Shown: one piece after another, positions 25,648-59,477 of the stretch
Layout of the letters: each line of letters begins with the position of its first letter
Position numbering within the stretch: the stretch's first letter is position 1
Virus record (IMG/VR): IMGVR_UViG_3300032245_000795
Span: 51,084-115,083 of that record
DNA: 64,000 nt
Reading direction: 5' to 3' (one strand)
From: a virus
Position numbers and translations under genes: made by a program
Notes under the pieces: model-generated
The model's input: only the letters and a program-made list of their open reading frames with translations
Told to the model about the DNA's origin: nothing
Databases searched by the model: none

Positions 25648-25912
25648 GTCAAAGAGAATAGGTGCTAAACAGCACAAGAACTCTGGTCGCAATACTCAAA
25701 AAGGAGATGCTTCTTGGAAAAACTTTGTTGTAGACTTTAAAGAGGTTGGAAAATCTTTTACATTAAATAAAGAAGTTTGGGCAAAAGCCACTACGGATGC
25801 TATGAAAAACGGTAAGGATCCAGCCATTGTTGTGATAATGGGAGAGGGTAATGCAAAGGTTAGGCTTGCTATAATTGAGATGAGCATTTTAGAAGACATG
25901 GTGGAGGAATAA
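25631..25912 (+). CDS. Unknown protein
   Basis: 93 aa. The start at 25631 follows GGAAGGGCA. A basic N-terminus (KRIGAKQHKNSGRNTQKGD) precedes a compact alpha/beta domain (WKNFVVDFKEVGKSFTL ... PAIVVIMGEGNAKVRLAII). It sits in the recombination/nuclease cluster and may bind DNA. Confidence 0.55.
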   Translation: MTEKSESKRIGAKQHKNSGRNTQKGDASWKNFVVDFKEVGKSFTLNKEVWAKATTDAMKNGKDPAIVVIMGEGNAKVRLAIIEMSILEDMVEE

Positions 25913-26217
25913 TGGAACAACAAGGAACAACAATAGATATGGTAAATGGTCTTGCAGAGATTGCAGACTACATGCAAGATGAAGAACTAACGGTTGCATT
26001 GACAATGATTGCTAAACTAATTATAAAGCCAGACATTCCAATCAATGTTGCTCACGTTGAGATTGTAAGGCTTCAGGCAATTGCAGCAAAGATGGCTTTT
26101 AAGGCTACATGGATGGCTAATGTTGACAAGTCCGATAGGGGAAAGAAGAATCTTTACTATACTGCAGCAGAATCACTTAATAATTTAGTGTCTGCACTCA
26201 AGTATATAACCCGCTAA
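25912..26217 (+). CDS. Helical unknown protein
   Basis: 101 aa, mostly helical, with no motif. Start overlaps the preceding stop (TAATG). Confidence 0.5.
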   Translation: MEQQGTTIDMVNGLAEIADYMQDEELTVALTMIAKLIIKPDIPINVAHVEIVRLQAIAAKMAFKATWMANVDKSDRGKKNLYYTAAESLNNLVSALKYITR

Positions 26218-37073: not shown

Positions 37074-37146
37074 TGCCCTATAACTCAGTTGGTAGAGTGC
37101 CGAACTGTTAATTCGGATGTCCCTGGATCGAGGCCAGGTGGGGCAG
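37074..37146 (+). tRNA. tRNA-Asn(GUU)
   Basis: Acceptor TGCCCTA pairs with TGGGGCA, D arm ACTC/GAGT, anticodon loop CTGTTAA, T arm CCTGG/CCAGG. CCA is not encoded. Confidence 0.93.
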
Positions 37147-37151
37147 CGTGA

Positions 37152-38584: not shown

Positions 38585-39169
38585 ATGCTAATAAATGAGA
38601 AGGAATACTCTCAAATTTTATTTGTTCACATACCAAAGACTGCTGGATCTTCAATCTCAAAGGTACTGAAAGATAATAATTTAGATAACTGGAATAGGGC
38701 ATGGCCAAGACATCATGATCCATATTCATATCTAAAAGATGTAAACAAAATTGATGGCAGTGTTTTTTCTTTTTCTGTTGTAAGAAATCCATACACAAGA
38801 ACATATAGTTGTTATAAGCAGTTCAATAAGGTTAATAAAACAGATATATCTTTTATAAAATATTTAGAAAATATTAAAGAAAACAATATATCTCCTATAA
38901 GTCCACTGCTTCATATACCACAGTCGTTCTATGTTATGGAAAATAATGTTGTTCAAGTTGACAGACTTTATAAGTTTGAAAATCTAAAGGAACTGGAAGA
39001 CGAACTTGGATGGACTCTTGGTTTTTATAACGTAGGAAACTATGTGGTAGAATCATATATGGAAGATTATACAGAGTATGCAGTAGTTATGACTCAGGAC
39101 CTCTATAGTTCTGATTTTATAAACTTTGGATACTCTAAAGATTTTAATGAAACCCTGGAGAAAAAATGA
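38585..39169 (+). CDS. Sulfotransferase-family protein
   Basis: 194 aa. The PAPS 5'-phosphosulfate loop is HIPKTAGSS at residues 15-23 and the 3'-phosphate region is VVRNPYTRTYSCY near 65. It would transfer sulfate to a glycan or small molecule. It is first in a chain of overlapping genes (sulfotransferase, hydroxylase, APS-kinase fusion), so donor synthesis may be linked. Short for the family, so the acceptor domain is small. Confidence 0.75.
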   Translation: MLINEKEYSQILFVHIPKTAGSSISKVLKDNNLDNWNRAWPRHHDPYSYLKDVNKIDGSVFSFSVVRNPYTRTYSCYKQFNKVNKTDISFIKYLENIKENNISPISPLLHIPQSFYVMENNVVQVDRLYKFENLKELEDELGWTLGFYNVGNYVVESYMEDYTEYAVVMTQDLYSSDFINFGYSKDFNETLEKK

Positions 39170-39729
39170 AAAAGATATTAGAAGACTTTAACTTTAAGCA
39201 TCATGTCAATTATGAGGTTGAGTCAATTAAAAATTATATAGATAGTTTTTCTGAAGAATGGTTTCTTAACACATCAAGACAAGATAATCACTATGTTCAT
39301 AAAGATACAAACTCATACTTTGTTTATACTGCAGATCTTAGATGGAAAGAGGGAGATATTTTTTCTACTCAAAAAACATCTAATGACAGCGCCTTGCTTG
39401 AACTTCTTGAGCCAATAATCTCAGACCTTGAAAAGATACATGATGGTGTTAGAGGCATGGTGCTTTTAATTAAGTTGAAGGCAGGTCAAGATATAGCGCC
39501 ACATCACGACTCAGGAGATTACCTAATGCTGTCAAGAAGAAACCATATACCAATAGTTACATCTGATGATGTATTTTTTGGTGTAGGAGATGAAAAGATT
39601 AAAATGAAGACTGGAGAATGTTGGGAAATCAATAACTCAAGAACTCATTTTGTAAACAATGGTAGTAAAATAGACAGGGTACATCTATTGATTGATATTG
39701 TGCCAAACACAGAGATAGGTAAAAAATGA
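39166..39729 (+). CDS. Aspartyl/asparaginyl hydroxylase-like Fe/2OG oxygenase
   Basis: 187 aa. Iron ligands H-x-D in APHHDSGDYL (near 112) and His in RTHFVNNGS (near 160), followed by DRVHLLIDIV with the 2-oxoglutarate Arg. It resembles the Asp/Asn beta-hydroxylase (PF05118) pattern. It overlaps both neighbours by 4 bases. Substrate unknown; a partner in the sulfotransferase cassette. Confidence 0.72.
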   Translation: MKKILEDFNFKHHVNYEVESIKNYIDSFSEEWFLNTSRQDNHYVHKDTNSYFVYTADLRWKEGDIFSTQKTSNDSALLELLEPIISDLEKIHDGVRGMVLLIKLKAGQDIAPHHDSGDYLMLSRRNHIPIVTSDDVFFGVGDEKIKMKTGECWEINNSRTHFVNNGSKIDRVHLLIDIVPNTEIGKK

Positions 39730-40487
39730 TTATTCAAATTATAGGTCTTCCAGGTTCAGGAAAGACAGAGTTGGCCAAGGCACTTAAAGAAAGAATTAAT
39801 GCTATTCATCTCAATGCAGATGAGGTTCGCTCAACAGTAAATTCAGACTTAGGATTTGCACCAGAAGATAGGCTTGAACAGGCTCGCCGCATGGGGGAGA
39901 TGGCAAGACTAATTGCTAAGCAAGGTATTGCTCCAGTAATAGTAGACTTTGTATGTCCTACTGATCTAACTCGTGCAGCATTTGGCAAATCAGATATCTT
40001 GGTATTCATGGACACAATTGCTGAAGGTCGCTTTGAAGACACAAACAAAATGTTTGAGCGCCCAACAGAGTTTGATGTGTCTTTTATTAGTCACAACTTA
40101 GATGCAGAAGCAAAAGCATCTCACATAATTCAAAAGTTTAACTTACATGATTGGTCTGCACCTACAACTCTAATGCTGGGCAGATACCAGCCATGGCATG
40201 AAGGCCACCACGCCCTTTATAAGGAGGCAGGAAAGAGAACTGACCAAGTACTTCTTGGAGTCCGCAATACCTATAACACAAGCGAGAAAGATCCACTTAA
40301 GTTTGATCAGGTAAAAGAGTATATTGGCAAAGATGAATTTATGGATGGCGCATTAGTATTAAGACTACCTAACATTACTAACATTGTATATGGCAGAGAT
40401 GTAGGATATAAGATTGAGCAAGTAGACTTAGGTGCAGATATTCATGCTATTTCTGCTACGCAAAAGCGTAAAGATATGGGAATCTAA
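39726..40487 (+). CDS. APS-kinase-like / nucleotidyltransferase fusion
   Basis: 253 aa. The N-terminal half has P-loop GLPGSGKT at 7-14, NADEVRSTVNSDLGFAPEDR and RRMGEMARLIAKQGI, the APS-kinase signature. The C-terminal half has GRYQPWHEGHHALYKEA (HxGH type) and ISATQKRK, like NadM/cytidylyltransferases. Activities would be PAPS formation and/or adenylyl transfer. Next to sulfotransferase genes, PAPS supply is plausible; the second half could work in NAD or coenzyme metabolism. Confidence 0.78.
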   Translation: MIIQIIGLPGSGKTELAKALKERINAIHLNADEVRSTVNSDLGFAPEDRLEQARRMGEMARLIAKQGIAPVIVDFVCPTDLTRAAFGKSDILVFMDTIAEGRFEDTNKMFERPTEFDVSFISHNLDAEAKASHIIQKFNLHDWSAPTTLMLGRYQPWHEGHHALYKEAGKRTDQVLLGVRNTYNTSEKDPLKFDQVKEYIGKDEFMDGALVLRLPNITNIVYGRDVGYKIEQVDLGADIHAISATQKRKDMGI

Positions 40488-40595
40488 ATGTTAGAAAATG
40501 TTATTGCAATTGTTGTTTCGCTTATGGTCGCTGCTATTACTGTCTACTTTGTTGACAAAAAGTGGGGTGGATCTGATGACAGTAACCAAGGCTAG
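40488..40595 (+). CDS. Small membrane protein
   Basis: 35 aa, one hydrophobic helix (VIAIVVSLMVAAITVYFV) and a polar end. Its ATG directly follows the previous stop and it overlaps the next gene by 20 bases. Confidence 0.45.
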   Translation: MLENVIAIVVSLMVAAITVYFVDKKWGGSDDSNQG

Positions 40596-40779
40596 ATCTT
40601 TTACTAAGGCATTAAGTTATCGCATATGGGGAACACTATCTTCGTTTGTTGTTGCTTATGTAATTACTGGAGATGCAACACTTTCAGGAGCAATTGCCTT
40701 TTGGGAAACGGTAGTTAAAGTATTTATCTACTACGCACATGAGCGTGGTTGGAACTATATTCAGTGGGGAAGAAAATAA
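40576..40779 (+). CDS. DUF2061-like membrane protein
   Basis: 67 aa. ARSFTKALSYRIWGTLSSFVVAYVITGDATLSGAI, then WETVVKVFIYYAHERGWNYI. Closer to canonical DUF2061 than the copy at 37832. The stop overlaps the halogenase start. Confidence 0.75.
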   Translation: MTVTKARSFTKALSYRIWGTLSSFVVAYVITGDATLSGAIAFWETVVKVFIYYAHERGWNYIQWGRK

Positions 40780-42302
40780 TGAATAAGGACATAGTAGTTG
40801 TTGGTGGTGGAAGTGCTGGATGGCTGACTGCTTTAGCAGCAAAGCACAAGTATCCCAACCTTAATGTCATTGTTATAGAGTCAAAAGATATTGGAATCCT
40901 TGGCGCTGGAGAAGGATCAACCCCATACTTACCTGCATTTTTAGACAGCATAAACATAAGTCTAGAAGATTTAGTTAAAAATTGCGACGCAACTATAAAG
41001 AATGGTATTAAGTTTACTAATTGGAACAATGACAATGATTTTTACTATCATGGTTTTGGTGCTACAGACCTACCACTTGGAACAGAGGCTTTATCATCAA
41101 GATTTTTATCTGTAAGCCCAATGTTAGTATCAAGTCTTGTACTTAATAATGGCATAAGAGAAGTAGACTTTACGGAAAATTTATCAGAAAATAGCAAGGT
41201 TCCTTTTGTTCTTGAAAAAAACAAGGTTGGCAATGTAGTTTCAGACTATAAAAAATTAGCGCAGATATCTATTCATTTTAATGCTACAAAACTTGCAGTA
41301 AGGTTTAAAGAGATAGGCTTAGAAAGAGGTATTCAGGTTTTTGAAAATACAATAACTGAAGTATCCTTGGATGAAGATAATAACGTTAAAAGTCTGCAGT
41401 TGGATAATAATAAAACTATCCTATCTGATTTTGTTTTTGATTGCAGCGGATTCCATAGGCTTATTATAGGCAAAACACTTAATGGCAAGTGGAAAAGTTA
41501 TAAAGATCATCTTCCAGTAGACTCAGCCATTCCATTTTTTCTTGATATGACAGACAAAATTCCATCATACACAGAAGCAATTGCAATGAAGTATGGATGG
41601 ATATGGAAAATTCCACTACAGACAAGATTTGGATGCGGTTATGTCTATGATTCTTCTCTTATATCAGAAGCAGAAGCGATCAAAGAGTTAGAAGATTTCT
41701 TAGGTTTTGTTCCTCATTATCCAAGAAAAGATAAGGGCGGATTTAGTTTCAGCCCAGGAGCATTTGAAAGTCCATGGCAAAACAATGTTGTTGCAGTGGG
41801 ACTAGCAGCAAACTTTGTAGAGCCATTAGAGGCAACATCTCTTTGGGTTACAATGGTAGAACTGACTGAGATATTTAATAGTCCAGACTTCTTGCTAAAT
41901 AATTCTCAAGAAATTCGAGATGAGTTTAATAAGATTGTTATTAGTATGAACGATGACATTCTTAGTTTTATTTATTTCCATTACATGTCCTTAAGAAAAG
42001 ATACTGAGTTTTGGAAGAAGTTTTCTTATGAAAATGCTCCAGATAATTTAAAAAAGAAAATAAATATTTGGCAAAAAAGACTTCCTGGAAAGCAAGATAA
42101 TAGCAATCATTGGAATTCAAAGAGTTGGTTTTTGGTTGGGTCTGCACAAGAAACAATAAATAAGTCTATTGCAAAGGGTTACACAGATCTTTCAGAAGAG
42201 TATAGAAAAGCAATTGATACGTACGATTACTATAAAACATACAGAGAGTACAAGGTATCAGAATGTGTAGATCATAGACAATTTTTGGAGGGACTAAAAT
42301 GA
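40779..42302 (+). CDS. Flavin-dependent halogenase, tryptophan-halogenase family
   Basis: 507 aa, start at 40779 behind GGGGAAGA. FAD motif VVGGGSAGW at residues 7-15, halogenase motif W274-x-W276-x-I278-P279, K74 in CDATIKNGIKFTNW in the place of PrnA K79, and VEPLEAT near 347-353 in the place of the PrnA Glu motif. The active site therefore looks intact. It would use FADH2, O2 and halide to halogenate an electron-rich ring or peptide residue. A flavin reductase was not found and may be supplied by the host. It overlaps the next gene. Confidence 0.88.
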   Translation: MNKDIVVVGGGSAGWLTALAAKHKYPNLNVIVIESKDIGILGAGEGSTPYLPAFLDSINISLEDLVKNCDATIKNGIKFTNWNNDNDFYYHGFGATDLPLGTEALSSRFLSVSPMLVSSLVLNNGIREVDFTENLSENSKVPFVLEKNKVGNVVSDYKKLAQISIHFNATKLAVRFKEIGLERGIQVFENTITEVSLDEDNNVKSLQLDNNKTILSDFVFDCSGFHRLIIGKTLNGKWKSYKDHLPVDSAIPFFLDMTDKIPSYTEAIAMKYGWIWKIPLQTRFGCGYVYDSSLISEAEAIKELEDFLGFVPHYPRKDKGGFSFSPGAFESPWQNNVVAVGLAANFVEPLEATSLWVTMVELTEIFNSPDFLLNNSQEIRDEFNKIVISMNDDILSFIYFHYMSLRKDTEFWKKFSYENAPDNLKKKINIWQKRLPGKQDNSNHWNSKSWFLVGSAQETINKSIAKGYTDLSEEYRKAIDTYDYYKTYREYKVSECVDHRQFLEGLK

Positions 42303-42583
42303 AATTTAGAACAGAGTGGATTAATGCTCTAAAGACAATGAGGCATAAGTCTTATTGGGACCTACCAAATACTGTAGAGTTCTTTGCTTTTATGACCAAG
42401 GCAGCAATTATTGTCCCAGGTCTTATTTTTGGTGTACAGTTTTGGTGGCTATACATCTTTGCACTAATAACCAGTTTATCTTTAATCTGGTCGTCAACAG
42501 TTAAAACATTACCAACAATTATTTGGTTTAATATAATCTGGTCAATTCTTGCAGCAACTGCTATAATTAAGTATTGGGTCTAA
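42299..42583 (+). CDS. Membrane protein, 2-3 helices
   Basis: 94 aa, overlapping the halogenase stop. Hydrophobic segments (AFMTKAAIIVPGLIFGVQFWW, YIFALITSLSLIW, IIWFNIIWSILAATAI) and a polar N-terminus. Function unknown. Confidence 0.55.
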   Translation: MKFRTEWINALKTMRHKSYWDLPNTVEFFAFMTKAAIIVPGLIFGVQFWWLYIFALITSLSLIWSSTVKTLPTIIWFNIIWSILAATAIIKYWV

Positions 42584-42593
42584 GGGGGCACAA

Positions 42594-43001
42594 ATGTTTG
42601 AATATTATGTAAAAAAAGTAACAAAGGTAGTTGATGGAGATACCATTGATGTTGATATTGATTTAGGGTTTGACATTTCTTTTAGTTCAAGAGTCAGACT
42701 TGCTGGTATTGATACACCTGAGTCTCGTACAGCAGACAAGGCTGAAAAGGCTTTAGGACTAGAAGCAAAGGCTTATTTGAAGGCTGCTATTGACAGTGCT
42801 AAGTCTGTAGTAATTAAGACAGAGAAGATGGACTCTTCAGAAAAATATGGTCGTATTCTTGGTTGGGTTTATCTTGATGGAGATACCGTTTCTATTAATG
42901 ATAAGATGATCAATGATGGACATGCCTGGGGATACATGGGAGAAACAAAGGTCAAAGATTTTGACGCTTTGAAGAAGGCCAGAGCAAAGTCAGGTAAATA
43001 G
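42594..43001 (+). CDS. Thermonuclease (staphylococcal nuclease family)
   Basis: 135 aa, AAGGGGG ribosome site. D21, R35, D40, E43 and R87 fall on the same numbers as the SNase calcium and catalytic residues (RLAGIDTPES, EKYGRILGWVY). No signal peptide, so it would degrade DNA or RNA in the cell, perhaps host DNA. Confidence 0.85.
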   Translation: MFEYYVKKVTKVVDGDTIDVDIDLGFDISFSSRVRLAGIDTPESRTADKAEKALGLEAKAYLKAAIDSAKSVVIKTEKMDSSEKYGRILGWVYLDGDTVSINDKMINDGHAWGYMGETKVKDFDALKKARAKSGK

Positions 43002-43002
43002 A

Positions 43003-43227
43003 ATGGGGCTTAAAGAAGAAGCCATGCTTGAGCACCTGATGCTTCAGGGTGCTGTTGAATTTCAAGGTATAGATGAAGCAACTGGCGAGATGATGTATAC
43101 CATCACTGATAAGATGAAAGAAGTTAGTCCAGATATATATGAAGAACTAAAAGATCAGTATGAGCACCATATGTTTCAACTAATTGAGCAAGGTCCTACA
43201 AGAATGACATGGAGAATTCGTGGATGA
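43003..43227 (+). CDS. Unknown protein, paralogue A
   Basis: 74 aa. MLEHLMLQGAVEFQGIDEATGEMMYTITDKMKEVSP. Closely patterned on the next gene, so a tandem duplication. Acidic, alpha/beta, function unknown. Confidence 0.6.
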   Translation: MGLKEEAMLEHLMLQGAVEFQGIDEATGEMMYTITDKMKEVSPDIYEELKDQYEHHMFQLIEQGPTRMTWRIRG

Positions 43228-43562
43228 ACTTCAAAGATGAGGATGACGCAATAGATCAACTAATTCTTTCTGGTGCCCTTGAGGTTGCTGGAATAGACAT
43301 GAATACAGGAGAGCCTATTTATAATTTTACAGAAAAATTAATAGAGGTAAGTCCAGAGTTACATAAAGAAGTTTCTTTGTATTTTTCTCGTGAAACCATG
43401 TCTTTATGGAGTCATGGGTTTTTGGACATGGATGTGACTGAAAAAAATCCTATAGTAACACTAACACCAAAGGCCTTAGATGATGCTGAAGTATCTAAAC
43501 TAAGCAAAGAGTCTCAGGCTACGCTGAGCGAAATAATAAGAGTTATTCTTTCAGATAAGTAG
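43224..43562 (+). CDS. Unknown protein, paralogue B
   Basis: 112 aa, ATGA overlap with paralogue A. AIDQLILSGALEVAGIDMNTGEPIYNFTEKLIEVSP is the duplicate segment; the C-terminal half is different. Function unknown. Confidence 0.6.
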   Translation: MNFKDEDDAIDQLILSGALEVAGIDMNTGEPIYNFTEKLIEVSPELHKEVSLYFSRETMSLWSHGFLDMDVTEKNPIVTLTPKALDDAEVSKLSKESQATLSEIIRVILSDK

Positions 43563-43568
43563 TATAAT
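43563..43568 (+). promoter_or_regulatory. -10 promoter fused to stop codon
   Basis: TAG stop then TATAAT (AAGTAGTATAAT). The short leader has GGAGA before the ATG at 43583. Confidence 0.55.
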
Positions 43569-43582
43569 TGGTTTGGAGAAAT

Positions 43583-44005
43583 ATGGAATACTTTTTGGGG
43601 TCTGCTATAACAATGATTGCCATGTTCATTACGACAAGGCTAATATTGCCACGCAAACTAAATGCTAAAGTAAATAATTTTAGATACAGCCAAAGCCATA
43701 TTCATACATTAATTATGCCACTCATTCCAGATATCAAAAGTTATAAGAAAAAAATGATTACTCAGTCCAGCAAACATGATGAAAGAGTAAATATAAAAGT
43801 TGTAATATTTGACAATAAAGCATACTTTGTTAAAGATGGTAGTTTTTATTCCGCTGATATGGACGGAAACTTTATTGATAGACAGACGGCAACTGTAGTT
43901 GACACGATAGGTATGGATAAGGTACAATTAGATAAGATGCTGTTTATAATGGATCAACTTAGGGATGGGAAGAAAAATGATAGTGGGGATTCAAGGAACC
44001 AGTAG
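43583..44005 (+). CDS. Membrane-anchored unknown protein
   Basis: 140 aa. N-terminal hydrophobic helix (FLGSAITMIAMFITTRLIL), then a basic cytoplasmic domain with beta strands (VNIKVVIFDNKAYFVKDGSF). Confidence 0.5.
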   Translation: MEYFLGSAITMIAMFITTRLILPRKLNAKVNNFRYSQSHIHTLIMPLIPDIKSYKKKMITQSSKHDERVNIKVVIFDNKAYFVKDGSFYSADMDGNFIDRQTATVVDTIGMDKVQLDKMLFIMDQLRDGKKNDSGDSRNQ

Positions 44006-44327
44006 TTTTGATGACTACCATGTCTTCCTTAGAGCAATGGCAGTTACTATGTCTTCTTTAAAGGAAGATGATCCATACCTTTATATATATTCTGCAGGAC
44101 CTGCAAATATTAATCTTATGGCTATGGAGTTTACAAACTTGTCTGAGCGTGGCTTAAAGGCTCGTGGAAAAAGTATTAAGTATAAGCCTGTTCCTCCTTC
44201 ATGGATAGCAGAAAACATTTCAGATGTAAACTACTTTGCTTTTTTAAGTAAAGAAAAAGAGCAGGTCTCAAAACTTGTCGATGAAGCAAAAAACAACAAT
44301 GTCGAATACGGCATTTTCAGATACTAA
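43977..44327 (+). CDS. SLOG-like Rossmann-type protein
   Basis: 116 aa. The start VGIQGTSSFDDYHVFLRAM and the later YIYSAGPANINLMA resemble the nucleotide-binding SLOG/DprA-like fold. It overlaps the previous gene by 29 bases. Possible nucleotide-sensing or DNA-uptake-like role, uncertain. Confidence 0.5.
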   Translation: MIVGIQGTSSFDDYHVFLRAMAVTMSSLKEDDPYLYIYSAGPANINLMAMEFTNLSERGLKARGKSIKYKPVPPSWIAENISDVNYFAFLSKEKEQVSKLVDEAKNNNVEYGIFRY

Positions 44328-44340
44328 CAAAGGAATAAAA

Positions 44341-44550
44341 ATGCAAATTAAATCATTAGAACAGATGGAAAAGATTGTTAATTCAAACAAGTCTTTGGTA
44401 TGGGATGGATGGACAGTGGTAAATACTTATCCCTCTGAGAAGGGTAGAACAGCACCACAAGGTGCATTCGTAGATGGTAAGTGGCACCTACAGCGTCGTT
44501 TTGTACCTTCTAAGAATGGATGGGACATACCAGACAAGTTTGTAGGTTAG
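44341..44550 (+). CDS. Small unknown protein
   Basis: 69 aa. WDGWTVVNTYPSEKGRTAPQGAFVDGKWHLQRRF, beta-rich and aromatic. The start follows AAGGAATAAAA. Confidence 0.5.
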   Translation: MQIKSLEQMEKIVNSNKSLVWDGWTVVNTYPSEKGRTAPQGAFVDGKWHLQRRFVPSKNGWDIPDKFVG

Positions 44551-44551
44551 T

Positions 44552-44836
44552 ATGCCTAAACATGAATGGAAAGATGATGCTTTGTGTTTGGACTATGATA
44601 CAAATTTATTCTTTGAAAAGTATGAAGATGATGAATTATTAAGGCCAGCAATAGATAAACTATGTTCTATGTGTCCAGTATCAAAGATGTGTTTTGCTGT
44701 TGGTGTTTCTCAAAAAGAATGGGGAGTTTGGGGTGGTGTTTATCTTGAAGCGGGTCAACTATCTAAAGAATTTTCTAAGCATAAGTCTAAATCAGACTGG
44801 GCAAATACATGGCAAAGACTGACAACGGAGCAATAA
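44552..44836 (+). CDS. whiB: WhiB-family iron-sulfur regulator
   Basis: 94 aa. Cys12, Cys38, Cys41 and Cys47 give the WhiB 4Fe-4S ligand pattern (CSMCPVSKMC), followed by the GVWGGVYLEAG turn. WhiB proteins bind sigma A and alter promoter choice and redox responses; this family is specific to Actinobacteria and their phages. The C-terminal tail is rich in Lys/Ser. It may retune host sigma-factor promoters. Confidence 0.9.
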   Translation: MPKHEWKDDALCLDYDTNLFFEKYEDDELLRPAIDKLCSMCPVSKMCFAVGVSQKEWGVWGGVYLEAGQLSKEFSKHKSKSDWANTWQRLTTEQ

Positions 44837-44837
44837 A

Positions 44838-45074
44838 GTGTATACAGATTCAATGAGAAAAGCGTTTCATTCACTTAGAGGGCCAAAAGGTTTTTATCTT
44901 CAAGTAATTGATCATGACAATTTTTTAACAATAAAAGCAAGTGAAAAACAGTTTATGAGTTTGTCTGGAGAAGACAGAAAACAGGCGGTAGAGTACATGA
45001 TCCGTGTAAAAAAAGCATTAGAAGATAATGGTGCCATTGTTTTGTTAGTAAGAGAAGGAGGAAAAGAACAATGA
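44838..45074 (+). CDS. Small unknown protein
   Basis: 78 aa with a GTG start. Helical, basic, no motif. Overlaps the next gene by 4 bases. Confidence 0.5.
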   Translation: MYTDSMRKAFHSLRGPKGFYLQVIDHDNFLTIKASEKQFMSLSGEDRKQAVEYMIRVKKALEDNGAIVLLVREGGKEQ

Positions 45075-45496
45075 TCGAATTTACTGCATTTACAGTTTTT
45101 ATATTTTTATTTTTTATTTTAATAATTAATAATATTAGGGTTAGCCTTAAACTTTCTTCTGCATATCAAAAATTAATTCAAGCCCACATAGATAACACTA
45201 TCTTGGCAGAAAAACTTTTTGAAACATCTGCACAAATAATAGTAAAAAAAGAAACAGATTCAGACGCTTTCTTAAAATTTGTTTCAGATTCTCGTGACTG
45301 GGCATATCAGTACATTGATGAGGTTCAAGAAGGTATAAACAAGTTTATTACTGATATTGAAGCAGAAATTGCATACTTTGATGAATATGGAGAGGTTGGT
45401 TCTGCATACCCTCATTATCACTCTATGAAGAAAATTTCAAAGGCATACAAAGAACTAAAGAAATTGCTACCAGAAGACTATGATAAAATAGAGTAA
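45071..45496 (+). CDS. Membrane-anchored coiled-coil protein
   Basis: 141 aa. One N-terminal membrane helix (TAFTVFIFLFFILIINNI), then charged helices in the cytoplasm or periplasm. Confidence 0.55.
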   Translation: MIEFTAFTVFIFLFFILIINNIRVSLKLSSAYQKLIQAHIDNTILAEKLFETSAQIIVKKETDSDAFLKFVSDSRDWAYQYIDEVQEGINKFITDIEAEIAYFDEYGEVGSAYPHYHSMKKISKAYKELKKLLPEDYDKIE

Positions 45497-45642
45497 TGAT
45501 CGTACTTAAATCAACTAAAAATCTTAACATGTTTATATGTGAAGAAGAGTTATGTCAGGATGAAAGTACAAGAGTTTGGGCAAGTTCTGAAAGTAGAATC
45601 GTAGAACTTTGTGACCTACATTACGGTAAGGCAAAGGAATGA
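45496..45642 (+). CDS. Small Cys-rich protein
   Basis: 48 aa. CEEELC near 15-20 and LCDLHYG near 39-44 suggest a zinc site like the DUF7455-type protein. Start and end overlap both neighbours (TAATG, ATGA). Confidence 0.5.
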   Translation: MIVLKSTKNLNMFICEEELCQDESTRVWASSESRIVELCDLHYGKAKE

Positions 45643-46496
45643 AATTTTATTATTTTGGTGGTGTGTTAGGTTCAAAAACTTCTGTCAAATCTCCATCTAA
45701 TCTTAATGATCATGGGTTTCATGGGGTAATGTTTACACATGATATACCGCAAGGTGACATATTTATACAAACAGCCTTGGACATAAAGCCAAATGAAAAA
45801 ATTAAATACTTAGTAGCCATCCGTCCGTATACAATATCACCGCAATATCTTTATATGCTTAATGATTCACTAAACAAAATACAAAAAGATAGAGTACAAC
45901 TAAATATTATTTCAGGTTATACTAAAAATCATGAGAACAGTGTTAAAGGTATTGTTGGAAATGTAAATGATCAATCAGACAAGGTTGAAAAAAGAAAGTA
46001 CCTTGTTGAGTTTCTTGAATCATTAAATGAAATGAATTCAAACAAAGATCTAAATTATCCATTGGACTTCTTTGTAACAACAACAAACCCAAGAGTACTT
46101 GATGCTGTTAACAAATATAACAATAAGATAATTTTGCCATATAGTTTGTATAAGAACGACATTTGGTTTAAAAAATTTAATCGTCCATTAGAAGTTAAAA
46201 GTAAAGACATTATGTTGGCAATAACGCCAGTCATTAGAGACACAGAGGAAGAACTTGACGAGTTAAAAAACTACGCACTAAGACCTATATGGCAAGAAGG
46301 AGAAGTCTCCAGAGTAGTAAACGATGCTGCATACTTTACACCAAATAGTTTCCATGAATTTGTAAAAGATCTAAAGAAAAATAATATTCACTACATGTTG
46401 ATCAATGCTGTTCCGCAAGGGGAAAATGATATAATTATTCCTTTTATTAAAAATTATGTAGAATCAACAAAATATAAGGATATGGTACGAGCATGA
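45639..46496 (+). CDS. Luciferase-like (LLM) monooxygenase homologue A
   Basis: 285 aa. KIKYLVAIRPYTISPQYLY followed by RVQLNIISGY matches the flavin-binding strand/loop pattern of SsuD/LuxA-type monooxygenases (AvRP..sP and N.v.G). Overlaps the next gene, its paralogue. A TIM-barrel FMNH2-dependent oxygenase is expected; substrate unknown. It is slightly short for the family, which may reduce or alter activity. Confidence 0.62.
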   Translation: MKFYYFGGVLGSKTSVKSPSNLNDHGFHGVMFTHDIPQGDIFIQTALDIKPNEKIKYLVAIRPYTISPQYLYMLNDSLNKIQKDRVQLNIISGYTKNHENSVKGIVGNVNDQSDKVEKRKYLVEFLESLNEMNSNKDLNYPLDFFVTTTNPRVLDAVNKYNNKIILPYSLYKNDIWFKKFNRPLEVKSKDIMLAITPVIRDTEEELDELKNYALRPIWQEGEVSRVVNDAAYFTPNSFHEFVKDLKKNNIHYMLINAVPQGENDIIIPFIKNYVESTKYKDMVRA

Positions 46497-47371
46497 AGTT
46501 TTATTATTTTGGTGGTACATTCAATGAAAACGATACACTTGAAGACACATCTACCCTAAATAATCATCACTTTGATGGCGTTATGTTTACATATGATGCA
46601 ACACAAGGAGACATGTTTGTTAGGATTGCCAAAGATATTAAGTTAAACGAAAAAATTAAATACCTTGTTGCGATTAGACCCTATACAATATCTCCACAAT
46701 ACTTATATGCTATAAATCAATCAATAAGTGAAATTCAAAAAGATAGACTACAAATAAATATAATTGCAGGATATATTAAAGATCATGAAAGCAATGTTGG
46801 TGGAATTGTAGGTGATGTAAATGATTCATCATCTTCAGTTGAAAGGTCAAACTACACAATTAAATTTATTGAAAGTTTATATGAGATATCAAAAAATAAA
46901 GATAAAAAAGATCAATTGGATGTATACATATCAACAACGAACAACTATGTTTTTGATACAGTAAAAAAATATAAAAATAAAATTATACTTCCATATAGCA
47001 TTTACAAGCGTGGATTTTGGTCTGACTGGATTAAAGATCCTTCACTAAAGATTGAGTTTGAAAGAGGGGACATTGAAATAATGTTAGCAATGACTCCAGT
47101 TATTAGAGAAACTAAAGAAGAACTCGAATCCTTAGCACATCATGCTATGAAGCCAGTATGGAAAAAGGGAGACGTTACAAAAGTTGTAGAAGATGTAGAA
47201 TACTTTACACATGAAAGTTTTCATGAGTTTATTCAAATGCTTGAAGATGATAACATTAATCACTTATTAATAAATGCTGTACCAAGATCAGAGTCTACAA
47301 ATATTATTTCTTTTATAAAGAAATATGTAGAGTCAATAACAGATTTTGCTGGCCAACAGGCTGGTAAATAA
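46493..47371 (+). CDS. Luciferase-like (LLM) monooxygenase homologue B
   Basis: 292 aa, strongly similar to the preceding gene across its length (KFYYFGG, GVMFTYDATQGDMF, NEKIKYLVAIRPYTISPQY, INIIAGY). The overlapped pair could make a LuxAB-like heterodimer. The last residues are divergent. Confidence 0.62.
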   Translation: MKFYYFGGTFNENDTLEDTSTLNNHHFDGVMFTYDATQGDMFVRIAKDIKLNEKIKYLVAIRPYTISPQYLYAINQSISEIQKDRLQINIIAGYIKDHESNVGGIVGDVNDSSSSVERSNYTIKFIESLYEISKNKDKKDQLDVYISTTNNYVFDTVKKYKNKIILPYSIYKRGFWSDWIKDPSLKIEFERGDIEIMLAMTPVIRETKEELESLAHHAMKPVWKKGDVTKVVEDVEYFTHESFHEFIQMLEDDNINHLLINAVPRSESTNIISFIKKYVESITDFAGQQAGK

Positions 47372-47927: not shown

Positions 47928-48332
47928 ATGGTAAAAACAGCACTGGATCTTTTTAATGATCCATTTTTCAATACCTTCTCAAATTTTCAGAAGGTAACAA
48001 CAACAACAAACTATCCACCTTATAACCAGATCAAACTAAATGATAAAGAATATATTCTTTCATTTGCATTGGCTGGATTTTCTAAGGATGATGTCTCAGT
48101 ATCGCTAGACAATCGCAAACTTACAATTAAGGGCGAGAAGCAGGATCCTGAGTTGCCAGAGGGTGCGGAGTATCTACATAAGGGCATTGCTGCTCGTAAG
48201 TTTACTGATATCTTCACCCTTCCTGAGTTTGTTGAGGTGGTTGGGGCTGAATTTAAAGACGGTATCTTAGATATTAGACTTGAAAAGCAGATCCCAGAAG
48301 ACAAACTACCAAAAACAATCGCAATCAAGTAG
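47928..48332 (+). CDS. hsp20: Hsp20 small heat-shock protein
   Basis: 134 aa. Alpha-crystallin domain (YILSFALAGFSKDDVSVSL, KLTIKGEK, FKDGILDIRLEKQ) and a C-terminal I-x-I (TIAIK). It holds unfolded proteins during stress, perhaps helping capsid or host-protein folding. The stop codon is fused to the next promoter. Confidence 0.87.
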   Translation: MVKTALDLFNDPFFNTFSNFQKVTTTTNYPPYNQIKLNDKEYILSFALAGFSKDDVSVSLDNRKLTIKGEKQDPELPEGAEYLHKGIAARKFTDIFTLPEFVEVVGAEFKDGILDIRLEKQIPEDKLPKTIAIK

Positions 48333-48743: not shown

Positions 48744-49193
48744 ATGGAAGAATTGATTAATCTACTGAAGGTGCTCCTTGCAGACAATATTACTCTTAAG
48801 TTAAAGGCTCATGGTTACCACTGGAATGTAGAAGGAGATGACTTCCCACAATTTCACGATTTTTTTGGTGACATTTATGCAGACTATGAGTCAGCAACAG
48901 ATACTTATGCTGAATGGATTCGTAAGTTAGATTCTTATGCACCATTTAAATTATCAAGGTTTATTCAACTGAATGAAGTTGGTGAGCCAGATGTAACATC
49001 AGATCCTATGATGATGTCTAAAGATTTGCTAATTTCAAATGATATGGTTCTTGCTAAGTTAGTAGATGCCTGTGATATGGCAACAAAAAATAGACAACAT
49101 GCTCTTGCAAACTTTTTTGCAGAAAGAATGGATCAGCATCAAAGATGGCATTGGATGCTATCTGCATCAACCAAACCAATGGGAGAAGAATAA
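48744..49193 (+). CDS. dps: Dps/ferritin-like protein
   Basis: 149 aa. LKLKAHGYHWNVEGDDFPQFHDFFGDIY, then a D-x3-E pair (SATDTYAEWI) give the Dps ferroxidase pattern. It would store iron and protect DNA against peroxide. Length close to bacterial Dps. It overlaps the next gene by one base. Confidence 0.85.
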   Translation: MEELINLLKVLLADNITLKLKAHGYHWNVEGDDFPQFHDFFGDIYADYESATDTYAEWIRKLDSYAPFKLSRFIQLNEVGEPDVTSDPMMMSKDLLISNDMVLAKLVDACDMATKNRQHALANFFAERMDQHQRWHWMLSASTKPMGEE

Positions 49194-51161: not shown

Positions 51162-51216
51162 AATGTTTCCCGACATAAACATAACAACTATATTGTCACA
51201 CTTTAATTATATCATG

Positions 51217-51288
51217 TACCCCTGGCAGGAATCGAACCTGCGACAAACGGATTAGAAGTCCGCTACTCTTCCGCTGAGTTACAGAGGT
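51217..51288 (-). tRNA. tRNA-Arg(UCU)
   Basis: Acceptor ACCTCTG/CAGGGGT, D arm ACTC/GAGT, anticodon loop CTTCTAA, T arm GCAGG/CCTGC. Reads AGA, a common codon here. CCA not encoded. Confidence 0.9.
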
Positions 51289-51292
51289 ATGG

Positions 51293-51366
51293 TACATCTG
51301 GAAGGACTTGAACCTTCGGCTCTCTGCATATAAGGCAGGTACTCTAACCAACTGAGTTACAGATGT
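51293..51366 (-). tRNA. tRNA-Ile(UAU)
   Basis: Acceptor ACATCTG/CAGATGT perfect, anticodon loop CTTATAT, T arm GAAGG/CCTTC. Anticodon UAU reads AUA directly, unusual for bacteria. Confidence 0.85.
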
Positions 51367-51367
51367 G

Positions 51368-51442
51368 TACACCAGGTAGGACTTGAACCTACGAATAGCC
51401 GAATTATGAGTTCGGTGCCTTAACCAACTTGGCTACTGGTGC
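51368..51442 (-). tRNA. tRNA-Met(CAU) or Ile2
   Basis: Acceptor GCACCAG/CTGGTGT, anticodon loop CTCATAA, T arm GTAGG/CCTAC. Elongator Met and lysidine-modified Ile2 share this loop and cannot be separated by eye. Confidence 0.82.
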
Positions 51443-52643: not shown

Positions 52644-52672
52644 AGTATACCTTAAGATGAGTTAGTTGTCAA
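52644..52672 (-). promoter_or_regulatory. Consensus promoter, leaderless
   Basis: TTGACA, 17-base spacer, TATACT, 6 bases to ATG. The TGA stop of the upstream gene lies inside the -35 hexamer. Confidence 0.7.
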
Positions 52673-53097
52673 ACAATATCTGATACTTGATGAGAACTAA
52701 GATAATGAGTAATTGATCCATCAGAAGATATTAAAAATTTTTCAAAGTTCCAACCAATATTTGTAATGCCAGTGCTTTCCTTACAATGCTTATATATTGG
52801 ATGAGCATTAGGACCATTGACCTCTACTTTTTGAGATAGTGGAAATTTCACACCATAATTGGTTGTACAAAATTCTTTAATATCTTGGTTGTTTCCAGGC
52901 TCTTGGTTTCCAAACTGATTACATGGAAAACCCAAGACCACAACTGAGTCACTATATACTTTCTGTAGATCTGAATACTGTGTTGTATAACCACAATTGC
53001 TTGCAGTATTAACTATTAATATTTTTTTTCCTTTAAAACTTTCGAGTTTTATTTCATTACCAGAATTGTCAGTAAATGACAAATCATATATACTCAT
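52669..53097 (-). CDS. Glutathione peroxidase-family protein
   Basis: 142 aa. Peroxidatic Cys35 in NTASNCGYT, GFPCNQFGNQEPG and WNFEKFLI are all present, with Cys instead of selenocysteine. It reduces peroxides using thiol donors. It adjoins a larger homologue. Confidence 0.87.
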   Translation of the reverse strand: MSIYDLSFTDNSGNEIKLESFKGKKILIVNTASNCGYTTQYSDLQKVYSDSVVVLGFPCNQFGNQEPGNNQDIKEFCTTNYGVKFPLSQKVEVNGPNAHPIYKHCKESTGITNIGWNFEKFLISSDGSITHYLSSHQVSDIV

Positions 53098-53115
53098 ACG
53101 AGTCTCTTCTTTCTG

Positions 53116-53904
53116 TTAGTTAGATAGAACAAGGTTAGGATTGATGCGTGATCTTTCACCAGCAATAAGCCGTTCAATATGATCACGAATAACAGTATTC
53201 TCTTCATTGAAGATGTATTCTGATCTATCTGGGCCCATCTTTGGGTCTGCACCTTGTGCAATAAGATCTTCCTTTAGTGTACGCTCTACGTCCCAGTTTA
53301 ATGTTGTGGCAGGATAGTGCTTAGCGACATATCCATCCTTGTCAATTAAATACTTTTCAAAGTTAGCGTTCATCATGATACCACCGTTGTGCTCATTTAG
53401 GTATCTTGATTCATGGTCTGTCTTTTCAACTAATCCTTTTACTCTCTTATCTTCCTGCAAGGCTTTAATTTGTTCAGATATTTCTAAATAAAGTTCATGC
53501 CTATCTCCAAAAGGCTCACCATTTCCGTTAAGTCCTGGACCTTTACCAAGCCATGGTGCTTCTAATGGAATTTCTGCGGGATTGGATGTAATCATCTCTG
53601 AGAATGGGAATGTAACACCATAAACATCTTCTCCATATAACTTAGAGTCCATTCCACATGTAATACCTTGTGACCACTTACCCTTTGTGATGCTTGGACC
53701 ACAAAAATCGTTAGTAGGAATTGCTACAACAGTAAAATCTTCTCCTGCCAGATCTTCTTGAATCCACTGAATAGACTCCATTTGACCAGCGTTACCACAG
53801 CCTACTGTAGTGTTGATGAGCAAAACTGCTTTGCCCTTAAATTGTTCAAGAAAATTTGGAGTGCCTTCTGCAGATTCCAGTTTGATGTCATAGATAGATT
53901 TCAT
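53116..53904 (-). CDS. Expanded glutathione peroxidase-like protein
   Basis: 262 aa. NTTVGCGNAGQM keeps the peroxidatic Cys, AIPTNDFCGP and NANFEKYLIDKDG match the family, but an insert of about 90 residues (near 95-180) and a C-terminal extension are added. Probably a phage variant of the GPx beside it. Leaderless. Confidence 0.75.
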   Translation of the reverse strand: MKSIYDIKLESAEGTPNFLEQFKGKAVLLINTTVGCGNAGQMESIQWIQEDLAGEDFTVVAIPTNDFCGPSITKGKWSQGITCGMDSKLYGEDVYGVTFPFSEMITSNPAEIPLEAPWLGKGPGLNGNGEPFGDRHELYLEISEQIKALQEDKRVKGLVEKTDHESRYLNEHNGGIMMNANFEKYLIDKDGYVAKHYPATTLNWDVERTLKEDLIAQGADPKMGPDRSEYIFNEENTVIRDHIERLIAGERSRINPNLVLSN

Positions 53905-53924: not shown

Positions 53925-54608
53925 TTAGCAGTCATCTGCTGTGCTTATAGGCGCTATTTCTGGGTTAACAAAAGAGTTTCCGTACAAAGTGTGTCTTGAG
54001 TTAGGACCAAGAACCTTGTTTACTCTATGGCTATACTCTTCTCCGCCAGGAATAACAGCAAGCATACCAGCCTTTGGCTTAACCTTAATTGGAAGGTTTT
54101 TAAATTCAAGTTCTCCGCCATCAAAGTCATCATTTAAATAAAGACTAAAAGATGCTAAGATGTTGTGCTCAACTCCTGGATCTTGATGCCAGTACATTGC
54201 AAAATCAATTTCACTTTTATCTATCCCATACTCATTCATTAGATCATTGTTTGCATTTTCAACAATCTCTTCATCTGTCATATATTTAAATGTTTGAAGA
54301 GTTGCATGTCTTTTGTATCCCGCTGGAAGAACAGAGTCAAGTCTATCCCATACTCCACCAGGCTTTGAAAATACTGAAAGTTCTATAACCTGAGAAGTTT
54401 TATTAGGAAATTCTATATTGCCATCAGCATTATACTTAGGAATAATATTTAAAAATTTATTCAGTATGTTTCTATATGGAGACCTCATTGTTGGGTACCA
54501 TCCATTTACATCGTCTGTCTGAGTTTTAAACCAAGCCAACTCTTCTTCTGTCAAGAAGTTCTCTATGATCCAAACCTTTTTTGCTTCATCTAAGTATATT
54601 TTTTCCAT
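53925..54608 (-). CDS. Fe/2OG oxygenase, prolyl-hydroxylase-like
   Basis: 227 aa. HxD in WHQDPGVEH, second His in EEYSHRVNKV and Arg in NSRHTLYG give the iron and 2-oxoglutarate sites. P4H-type double-stranded beta helix (FSLYLNDDFDGGELEF). Protein or small-molecule hydroxylation likely. Confidence 0.75.
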   Translation of the reverse strand: MEKIYLDEAKKVWIIENFLTEEELAWFKTQTDDVNGWYPTMRSPYRNILNKFLNIIPKYNADGNIEFPNKTSQVIELSVFSKPGGVWDRLDSVLPAGYKRHATLQTFKYMTDEEIVENANNDLMNEYGIDKSEIDFAMYWHQDPGVEHNILASFSLYLNDDFDGGELEFKNLPIKVKPKAGMLAVIPGGEEYSHRVNKVLGPNSRHTLYGNSFVNPEIAPISTADDC

Positions 54609-54620: not shown

Positions 54621-54631
54621 CCATAACTTTG

Positions 54632-54703
54632 TAGCCCCAACGGGAATCGAACCCGTCTTTACGCCGTGAAAGGGCGTTGTCCTAACCGATAGACGATGGA
54701 GCC
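54632..54703 (-). tRNA. tRNA-Glu(UUC)
   Basis: Acceptor GGCTCCA/TGGGGCT, anticodon loop CTTTCAC, T arm ACGGG/CCCGT. CCA not encoded. Confidence 0.88.
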
Positions 54704-55589: not shown

Positions 55590-56168
55590 TTGTTTATCTA
55601 TGATGATAACTTTTTAAGTTTAGATCAGATTCTTGAAGTAAGCCAAGCAGTAACAAAAAATAATAAAAATATTATTTGGCATACCCTTGAAAATACAAGC
55701 GGTATACGCCAATATCTAAAGTTAAAAAATAATAATATAACAGTATCAGAGGATAAGCAACACTCTCATGCAGCATCTTTTAATAACAAAAAGATGTCAG
55801 ATATCCATGAAATTGGCAGCAATATCCTAAACACTTTTACTAAAAAACACGGGATAGAGGTAAAAAAAACTTTAAGAATTAAAGCAAACATCTTAAATAA
55901 AACAGATAAACAAGATCATATACACCCACCCCATGTAGATATGACCACACCACATATGGTTTTACTATACTATGTAAATGACTCAGATGGGGATACAATA
56001 ATCTTTCATCAAAAGCACTCATCTGATCAAGACCCAGTACTTACGGTTAACAGGTCAATCTCTCCAAAGGCTGGATCAGCAATAATGTTTGATGGTTTGA
56101 CTTATCACTCATCATCTTCCCCTCAATATACAGAAGAAAGAATAGTAATCAATATTAATTTTATCTAA
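55590..56168 (+). CDS. Fe/2OG oxygenase
   Basis: 192 aa with a TTG start, AAAGGAC 5 bases before it. HxD in HPPHVDMTTPHM, second His in DGLTYHSSSSP, Arg in ERIVININF. Typical 2OG oxygenase order. It lies between two small surface-like genes. Confidence 0.75.
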   Translation: MFIYDDNFLSLDQILEVSQAVTKNNKNIIWHTLENTSGIRQYLKLKNNNITVSEDKQHSHAASFNNKKMSDIHEIGSNILNTFTKKHGIEVKKTLRIKANILNKTDKQDHIHPPHVDMTTPHMVLLYYVNDSDGDTIIFHQKHSSDQDPVLTVNRSISPKAGSAIMFDGLTYHSSSSPQYTEERIVININFI

Positions 56169-58332: not shown

Positions 58333-58668
58333 ATGGAACTTACATATAGATGTATGAAGTGTGGCAACAATATCACCCCAGATATGTATGAGGGACAGCC
58401 TAAGTGCAATCTGTGCAACGTTAATACAATCCTTGTATTAATAACAGAAGAAAATAAAAATAGTATTCCACACCCAACAGATCCTGCTGGCAAAAAGAAA
58501 ATAGATTTTAATGATCCAAGTGCTACCTGTCAATGCGCTCCAGGACTATGCCCATGTGGTAAGTTTGTTGCACACTTAGCATCCGAAGCATGGGACCCAG
58601 AGAATCCACATTTATTCGGTGGAGAAGCAATGGAATGGCATAAAAAGAAAGCGCAAGAAAAAGAATGA
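58333..58668 (+). CDS. Zinc-ribbon protein
   Basis: 111 aa. Cys pairs CMKC, CNLC and CQCAPGLCPCG make two zinc sites; the C-terminus ends in charged residues. The last bases overlap the oxygenase start. Confidence 0.55.
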   Translation: MELTYRCMKCGNNITPDMYEGQPKCNLCNVNTILVLITEENKNSIPHPTDPAGKKKIDFNDPSATCQCAPGLCPCGKFVAHLASEAWDPENPHLFGGEAMEWHKKKAQEKE

Positions 58669-59477
58669 TAAACATAGTTCCCGTAGAATTTCCTGGTATT
58701 GAAAGAGTATTAGAAAATGCACAACACTATAAAGATAAACTAATATCTGATTCTGTAATATGTTTTAGAAACGCCAACCTAACACAGGATGAACAGTTTG
58801 ATCTTGCTAAGGGGCTGGGCAAAGTAATAGGATGGTCGTTACTTGATGACAAGAGCGAATACATAGAAAACCATGTTCGTAAATCAGAACTTAAATCTGG
58901 TCCAGATGACATTATTGTAGAGTGGCATGTTGAGCATACATACTACACAAACCCAATTGTTGCTTCAACTTGGAACATGTATAACTTTAAGACAGATAAC
59001 AATAATGGAAAGACATATTTTGTAGATACGACTGTTGTTTTTGAAATGCTTACAAAGGAAGAACAGGATTTTCTTCTTAACAGTATAATAATTGAGCCAG
59101 ATGTTATAAGAGAGTCTCAGTTGCGTAGTGGCTTTGTTAGTGAGAATACCAAACTTGCAGATCAGTATCCTATTATTGCTAAGCATTGGCTAACAGATAA
59201 GCCAGTTATAAGGTTTACAATACTTCCAGAGCCACTTATGGTTAAGTTAGTATCATATAACGGTGATTCTCCAAACAGCGATGCTGTTGCGTATTTTGAG
59301 GTATTGATTCGAAAAATAGAAGACATAATCTGGAACAACGAGGATATTAGAATGGTTCATAAATGGGAGCAAGGTGACCTAATTGTTCCAGATATGTTCA
59401 AACTCGCCCACGCTGTAACTGGTGGATTTAGCCACGAGGATCGAGAGTTCCGTGGTATATGGGGATATAAGGAATAA
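58665..59477 (+). CDS. TauD/TfdA-like Fe/2OG dioxygenase
   Basis: 270 aa. EWHVEHTYYTNPIVAS holds an H-x-E iron motif, GKTYFVDTTVVFEML matches the TauD GGxTxFaD region, and GDLIVPDMFKLAHAV holds the second His. The Glu in place of Asp is tolerated in some members. It is coupled to the zinc-ribbon gene upstream. Confidence 0.72.
   Translation: MINIVPVEFPGIERVLENAQHYKDKLISDSVICFRNANLTQDEQFDLAKGLGKVIGWSLLDDKSEYIENHVRKSELKSGPDDIIVEWHVEHTYYTNPIVASTWNMYNFKTDNNNGKTYFVDTTVVFEMLTKEEQDFLLNSIIIEPDVIRESQLRSGFVSENTKLADQYPIIAKHWLTDKPVIRFTILPEPLMVKLVSYNGDSPNSDAVAYFEVLIRKIEDIIWNNEDIRMVHKWEQGDLIVPDMFKLAHAVTGGFSHEDREFRGIWGYKE

Follow-up and report, generated by a model that had tools for sequence, protein, structure and literature searches.

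Do the neighbouring genes for sulfation, hydroxylation and halogenation carried by a freshwater phage serve one pathway, and which enzyme would supply the activated sulfate? The question is raised by a block at positions 38585 to 47371 of a 64,000-nucleotide window (the whole stretch of DNA that was analyzed, bases 51084-115083 of the 115-kb virus record IMGVR_UViG_3300032245_000795). An original prediction had described this block as a cassette of a sulfotransferase (SULT), an Fe(II)/2-oxoglutarate (2OG) hydroxylase (AspH), a fusion with an adenosine 5'-phosphosulfate (APS) kinase (APSK), a flavin halogenase (HAL) and paired luciferase-like monooxygenases (LLM1 and LLM2). All of these genes are present, as supported by profiles or, for LLM2, by an AlphaFold2 (AF2) model and Foldseek (Table 1). 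They belong to separate modules, namely, SULT with AspH and a second sulfotransferase-like gene (ST2), HAL with the membrane protein TM94, APSK with DUF2061 and, loosely, the LLM pair. The block is read here as a phage accessory tailoring module built around a sulfation unit dependent on 3'-phosphoadenosine 5'-phosphosulfate (PAPS), with PAPS coming from the fusion and with HAL-TM94 as a separable halogenating pair, a reading in which belief and doubt are about equally balanced.

The window also encodes WhiB, a DUF7455 protein, a CHAP endolysin, DNA polymerase III alpha, a primase, a helicase, a terminase and tail proteins. The polymerase, primase, helicase, terminase and tail genes indicate that the record is a tailed phage, and WhiB and the DUF7455 protein point to a host that is probably actinobacterial. 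In total, 229 loci were gathered by three scans of viral contigs, most of which are fragments, and the conserved block is shared by a group of freshwater phages. Co-occurrence was counted in 30 nonredundant loci with full downstream coverage, and co-inheritance was assessed on a quick core-gene tree of 55 loci from a filtered set that left out loci L166, L133 and L135.

Table 1. Features of the block and of the co-inherited gene ST2, in window coordinates
Feature	Coordinates	Strand	Basis
SULT, compact sulfotransferase, 194 aa	38585..39169	+	PF03567, 30.8 bits (cut-off 22); phrog_3347
AspH-like Fe(II)/2OG hydroxylase, 187 aa	39166..39729	+	PF05118, 53.6 bits (cut-off 22.6)
APSK, APS-kinase-like domain (1-140) and NMNAT-like nucleotidyltransferase domain (146-253)	39726..40487	+	PF01583, phrog_10255
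Possible 35-aa hydrophobic small ORF between APSK and DUF2061	40488..40595	+	read from sequence
DUF2061, small membrane protein, 67 aa, APSK partner	40576..40779	+	PF09834, 63.4 bits; start corrected from sequence
HAL, predicted flavin-dependent halogenase, 507 aa	40779..42302	+	PF04820, 342 bits
TM94, membrane protein, 94 aa, HAL partner	42299..42583	+	overlaps HAL stop codon
LLM1, luciferase-like monooxygenase, loosely linked	45639..46496	+	PF00296, 28.6 bits (cut-off 27.9)
LLM2, luciferase-like monooxygenase, loosely linked	46493..47371	+	AF2 model and Foldseek
ST2, second sulfotransferase-like gene, 245 aa	50358..51095	+	loops and profile-profile match to SULT

Co-inherited modules of the block

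SULT, AspH, APSK, DUF2061, HAL and TM94 form a coupled gene run (38585-42583) in which neighbours overlap by 1 to 4 bases, with the exception of the gap between APSK and DUF2061. The original prediction had ended this run at 42302 and had missed ST2 and the two small membrane partners, DUF2061 and TM94; the start of HAL was corrected from the sequence to ATG 40779 in place of TTG 40749. Its expectation of conserved neighbours was borne out, since the order SULT-AspH-APSK-DUF2061-HAL-TM94 is kept within 6 kb in 54 of the 59 loci holding all six genes. An overlap of exactly 4 bases, as between the end of SULT and the start of AspH in the window, is the commonest junction for SULT-AspH, AspH-APSK and HAL-TM94. 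The seven genes tested against relatives all have ratios of nonsynonymous to synonymous substitution (dN/dS) of 0.03 to 0.18, which indicates purifying selection and thus real, constrained genes. The catalytic motifs of HAL, SULT and AspH proved intact on alignment, and the prediction withstood both of the refuting conditions that it had named.

SULT contains the PAPS loops HIPKTAGSS (5'-phosphosulfate loop) and VVRNPYTRTYS (3'-phosphate motif), within which PKTAG.S and RNPY.R.YS are invariant in 16 aligned sequences; by these loops and its PF03567 score, it is classed from its sequence as a PAPS-dependent sulfotransferase. In AspH, the HxD...H metal site and the 2OG-binding Arg (H113, D115, H161 and R171) are invariant in 22 sequences, and the closest solved relative is the L-proline cis-4-hydroxylase 4p7w. 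ST2 lies outside 38585-47371, about 11 kb from SULT, and was singled out as tracking SULT by an unbiased test of open reading frame (ORF) families. It carries the loops HIPKTGGRF and FRDP, and hhalign aligned it to the SULT profile at a probability of 96%; its score against PF03567 is 17.9 bits, below the cut-off of 22, and hence it is called sulfotransferase-like. SULT and ST2 occur together in 15 of the 30 loci and are both absent from the other 15. Likewise, SULT never occurs without AspH (both in 15 loci, AspH only in 2, neither in 13). AspH and ST2 also accompany SULT in L060 and L072, in which a long distance separates SULT-AspH from APSK-HAL, and SULT, AspH and ST2 constitute the strictest co-inherited unit.

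HAL has the GxGxxG motif GGGSAG at residues 9 to 14, with G14 invariant and G9 to G11 conserved in at least 90% of sequences. K74 and E348 are invariant in 21 sequences and align with the K and E of solved halogenases, the catalytic residues numbered K79 and E346 in PrnA. In the Protein Data Bank (PDB), HAL has matches to tryptophan halogenases and VirX1. The WxWxIP motif of flavin halogenases (PMC8407142) reads W274-I-W276-K-I278-P279 and is changed only in Actinomycetia phage DSL-LC01 and locus L139. By these motifs, HAL is assigned to the flavin-dependent halogenases, and halogenating activity is predicted. HAL and TM94 were found together in 21 loci, HAL alone in 2, TM94 alone in none and neither in 7, and the core-gene tree gave 10:0 independent pairs in favor of their linkage (p=0.002). 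HAL-TM94 is a separable pair that usually, but not always, stands alongside the sulfation unit. In L166, DUF2061 is followed directly by an SNase gene (L166:4875-6506), which represents a natural empty site for HAL-TM94; this locus also has two copies each of DUF2061 and AspH.

Other independent pairs on the tree were 5.5:0 for SULT-AspH and 6.3:0 for AspH-HAL (both p ~0.03) and 4.5:0 for SULT-HAL (p ~0.06). The impression from the filtered set that SULT never occurs without HAL was discarded as an artefact of sampling through the cluster filter, with L166 and L133/L135 as counterexamples. The division into modules rests on these pairs and on the co-occurrence counts.

The LLM proteins are 55% identical to each other. 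LLM1 has a weak match to the alkanesulfonate-monooxygenase family, and LLM2 scored 18.6 bits against PF00296, below the sequence cut-off. The AF2 model of LLM2, with a mean predicted local distance difference test score (pLDDT) of 86, is a TIM barrel for which Foldseek returned MsuD, SfnG and SsuD (best E 4e-11). Against the alkanesulfonate-monooxygenase (SsuD/MsuD) equivalog, LLM1 and LLM2 scored 32.5 and 30 bits, far under the cut-off of 518. On the tree, the LLM genes are distributed independently of HAL (2.7 versus 2.4 independent pairs), and the reading of them as an invariable component of the pathway was rejected as unsupported. A third, diverged LLM-like gene lies directly 5' of SULT in many relatives (e.g., L022:5071-5907).

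The kinase-adenylyltransferase fusion

The N-terminal domain of APSK scored 56.3 bits against PF01583 (cut-off 21.1), and the C-terminal domain scored 18.7 bits against PF01467, slightly below the cut-off of 21. The P-loop is GLPGSGKT, and D32, R35, F44 and R49 are invariant in 15 aligned sequences. These residues match, at identical spacing, Asp480, Arg483, Phe492 and Arg497, which contact APS in Mycobacterium tuberculosis CysC (PMC4373884). The best kinase matches of the fusion, both by sequence and by fold, are APS kinases; the fold match was used for the kinase half alone, as the AF2 model has a pLDDT of 62 and its C-terminal half is unreliable. Among the ATP sulfurylase motifs QXRN, HXXH, GRD and SGTxxR (PMC3779200), the C-terminal domain keeps HXXH (H158 and H161), GRD (223-225) and S-A-T-x-x-R (243-248, with SAT for SGT). 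APSK and DUF2061 occur together in 24 loci and apart in 1.

The fusion is rare outside phages: a search of 84,980 species genomes gave six matches, including one on a phage-like contig in a metagenome-assembled genome (MAG), and among 297 genomes sampled from one order, 4 had a homologue, which in two cases is kinase only. In the chromosome of Rhizobium sp. BK376, a 555-aa protein (L236:7128-8795) has a PF03567 sulfotransferase fused ahead of the kinase-adenylyltransferase, and in a second Rhizobiales genome (L245) the fusion gene overlaps a PF00685 sulfotransferase gene. The contig in the MAG, assigned to Chitinophagaceae (L235), has an 89% identical fusion and is most likely a mis-binned phage contig. 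The kinase-only homologues (L246:156-1668 and L248:1531-2411, Rhizobiales) are each followed by a protein with loops that by eye resemble those of sulfotransferases; these neighbours had no Pfam or NCBIfam match and were not counted as sulfotransferases.

Nine phage records of at least 98 kb (G001 to G009) have the fusion without SULT, and six of them carry another sulfotransferase-like gene. An ST2-like gene is found in G001, G002, G003, G006 and G009 (weak in G002 and G006), Sulfotransfer_2 in G009, and Sulfotransfer_3 in G003, G008 and, weakly, G009. In one lineage, the ST2-like gene lies directly behind APSK-DUF2061 on the opposite strand.

Because the APS-binding residues are kept and the enzyme is fused to or overlaps a sulfotransferase in Rhizobium and another member of the Rhizobiales, the fusion is likely to make PAPS. 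Assimilatory sulfate reduction is missing from the acI actinobacteria of fresh water (PMC5301498), and a phage-borne PAPS supply would therefore be sensible if acI are the hosts. A more far-reaching proposal, offered tentatively and with more doubt than confidence, is that the 253-aa fusion may be a minimal PAPS synthetase, in which an adenylyltransferase of the nicotinamide mononucleotide (NMN) adenylyltransferase (NMNAT) type replaces ATP sulfurylase and is joined to a lid-reduced APS kinase, and that phages use it to activate sulfate for sulfating, hydroxylating and halogenating a surface molecule of hosts without sulfate assimilation.

Proposed mechanism and rival explanations

Building on the observed genes, intact motifs, gene order, purifying selection and strict SULT-AspH-ST2 and HAL-TM94 pairings, the block is proposed to decorate one or more acceptor molecules, perhaps late in infection. 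Its core would be two PAPS-dependent sulfotransferases, SULT and ST2, acting with the PF05118 hydroxylase AspH; PAPS would most likely come from the fusion, partnered by the membrane protein DUF2061, in actinobacterial hosts that perhaps have no sulfate activation of their own, and HAL with TM94, usually inherited with the sulfation unit, would halogenate an aromatic acceptor. The small membrane partners DUF2061 and TM94 hint at an acceptor in the envelope, and an envelope or phage-surface molecule seems more likely than a diffusible natural product. As originally predicted, no core synthase was found among the genes of the window and its relatives that were profiled. There was also no convincing precursor peptide among ORFs of at least 28 aa correlated with HAL or SULT; the correlated short ORFs are mostly antisense shadows and were rejected.

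Several observations weigh against this proposal. The score of APSK against the NCBIfam apsK equivalog is 58.1 bits, with a cut-off of 138.7. The APS-kinase lid (about 30 residues, with Lys562 and Phe576) was not recovered; two aligned segments are separated by about 33 fewer residues than in 3cr7, and the second of them scores 0 bits. QXRN is absent, with GRYQ in its place, as in NMNAT. By these family cut-offs, the short lid and the missing QXRN, the fusion is ruled out as an ordinary CysC or PAPSS. In two Casjensviridae phages, the fusion is present and no sulfotransferase was detected, 11 of 25 loci have the fusion without SULT, and on the core-gene tree the fusion tracks neither SULT nor HAL. 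Conversely, G012 has SULT, AspH and HAL, and the fusion is missing. L166, a very close relative (WhiB match of 100%), has SULT, ST2, two AspH genes and both LLM genes without HAL-TM94, and L133 and L135 likewise have no HAL, with SULT, AspH and ST2 retained in L133. No acceptor was found in the analysis, and the loci were seeded by the cassette genes themselves, so that their frequencies are not population values. Thus, of the original claims, the APS-kinase fusion held for PF01583 and the APS contacts and not for the equivalog cut-off, the lid and the full set of ATP sulfurylase motifs; a feed of PAPS to the sulfotransferases is plausible from the Rhizobiales arrangements, although the fusion does not track SULT; and the single pathway for the whole block is an inference that the data support in part, with SULT-AspH-ST2 as the strictest unit, HAL-TM94 as its usual companion, and LLM and the fusion varying independently. 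In the Casjensviridae, cysteine dioxygenase and MazG genes are found close to the gene for the kinase-adenylyltransferase (L233:2118-6726).

The genes may instead be independent accessory genes gathered in a hot spot between lysis genes without a shared pathway, an explanation that is possible but on the doubtful side. The minimum numbers of presence changes on the core-gene tree are high (15 for HAL, 13 for AspH, 12 for LLM and 7 for SULT), HAL-TM94 is cleanly absent from so close a relative as L166, and neither LLM nor the fusion tracks HAL; however, SULT is strictly paired with AspH and with a gene as distant as ST2, there are zero opposing independent pairs for SULT-HAL, AspH-HAL and HAL-TM94, and the overlapping gene order is conserved. 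For the fusion itself, a role in nucleotide or nicotinamide adenine dinucleotide salvage, as a kinase joined to an NMN adenylyltransferase in an arrangement like that of NadR but reversed and unrelated to the sulfotransferases, is rather unlikely. NMNAT structures are the best PDB matches of the C-terminal domain profile (38.7 bits), with no ATP sulfurylase at E<=1. The fusion also has a weak match (25 bits) to PF13521, the NadR kinase type, and its presence in the Casjensviridae and independence of SULT on the tree fit such a role. On the other side are the invariant APS-contact residues, the APS kinases as best kinase match, the sulfotransferase fusion and adjacency in Rhizobiales, and the retention of three of the four ATP sulfurylase motifs.

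A larger protein-modification set in which the enzymes act on fibre proteins of the phage itself (collagen-like or with Pro/Phe/Tyr-rich repeats) is unlikely. G000 combines a collagen-like gene with genes for a (VTP)n and a (PFFPPFF)n protein; of its eight PF13640 oxygenases, six lie close behind the last of these, and in DSL-LC01 the halogenase lies between collagen-like genes and a glycosyltransferase gene. However, PFF repeats are present in phages with and without HAL alike, for which reason PFF-repeat fibres were rejected as the HAL substrate; the link of HAL to collagen-like genes is weak (8 of 11 records with HAL versus 2 of 9 without, p=0.07), and 4p7w is named as a hydroxylase of free proline. 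Sulfur scavenging, in which the LLM pair and a TauD-like oxygenase would free sulfite from organosulfur compounds for the metabolism of the infected cell, is very improbable; it draws on the resemblance of LLM1 and LLM2 to MsuD, SsuD and SfnG and on a TauD gene in the window, whereas the LLM scores are far under the family cut-off, the LLM genes vary independently of HAL, and sulfotransferases use up activated sulfate rather than supply it.

In G000, a fibronectin-III protein (L250:5359-6288; G000 25159-26088) that carries a long (PFFPPFFPFFPFF)n repeat and ends in a Cys-rich region is followed shortly by six prolyl-4-hydroxylase-like PF13640 oxygenases (L250:6838-12936). PF13640 genes number 7 to 13 in records with repeats of this kind and 0 to 7 in records without (Mann-Whitney p=0.008), and it looks as if the G000 phage hydroxylates Pro-rich fibres of its own. 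Close to a (VTP)n repeat protein with PYFPYFT at its end (L249:12475-14523) and a collagen-like fibre (L249:10470-11201), both at the same coordinates in G000, lie a GT61 glycosyltransferase gene and a further PF13640 gene.

Neighbouring genes and known systems

The surroundings of the block include HSP20 (47928-48332) and ferritin-like, Dps-type (48744-49193) genes 3' of the LLM pair, five tRNA genes (Asn, Arg, Ile (tat), Met and Glu, at 37074-37147, 51216-51442 and 54631-54703) and an adjacent pair of glutathione-peroxidase-like genes (52669-53904, minus strand). More Fe/2OG oxygenases are encoded at 53925-54608 (minus strand), 55590-56168 (plus strand) and 58665-59477 (plus strand, TauD-like).

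The sulfation unit and its neighbours share cores with known families and differ from them in build. SULT has the PAPS-binding loops of Sulfotransfer_2 (PF03567) and PHROG 3347, in a very compact form and paired with the divergent ST2. AspH shares the HxD...H and Arg core and a profile match with 4p7w and the AspH family (PF05118), within a protein of 187 aa. The fusion resembles human PAPSS1/2 and CysNC in its APS-contact residues and, with an APS-kinase domain before an HXXH adenylyltransferase, follows the PAPSS domain order; unlike them, it has an NMNAT-type adenylyltransferase of about 110 aa, no QXRN, a shortened lid and a total length of 253 aa. The LLM proteins (about 290 aa) share the TIM-barrel fold of MsuD, SsuD and SfnG in the model, with 12 to 16% identity in the fold alignment, but they are an overlapping paralogous gene pair scoring below the family cut-offs.

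Halogenases are known from phages, among them VirX1 (PMC8407142), and earlier papers describe them as auxiliary genes (PMC10452541, PMC10611076); 66 records with PF04820 halogenases were found in an annotated phage collection, at most about 38% identical to HAL. VirX1 of cyanophage Syn10 (PDB 6qgm) and the halogenases of cyanophages and Pelagibacter phage HTVC008M belong to the same PF04820 family as HAL and have the same catalytic Lys/Glu and WxWxIP; they are phage borne, as is HAL, and the HTVC008M halogenase also adjoins a 2OG oxygenase. HAL differs in being tied to TM94 and joined to a sulfation unit, neither of which was seen in the two annotated phage halogenase neighbourhoods examined. 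Actinomycetia phage DSL-LC01 (PMC10611076) is likewise an actinophage of fresh water and also has WhiB and a PF04820 halogenase, but its halogenase is 30% identical to HAL and stands in the fibre-gene setting described above, with no SULT, ST2 or fusion found. Among the papers found in an open-licence library, none contained a tryptophan halogenase together with a sulfotransferase.

A halogenase alone is thus of a kind already known in phages, and the new aspects are a sulfation unit in which two sulfotransferases are obligate, the compact fusion and the pairing of HAL with TM94. An ability of the fusion to make PAPS would mark it as an unusually compact enzyme of sulfate activation and would mean that phages bring a donor-making pathway to hosts without one. 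Halogenases were first described in phages years ago and still lack a natural substrate, and the membrane partner and co-inherited tailoring enzymes of HAL narrow the search to a halogenated, hydroxylated and sulfated product.

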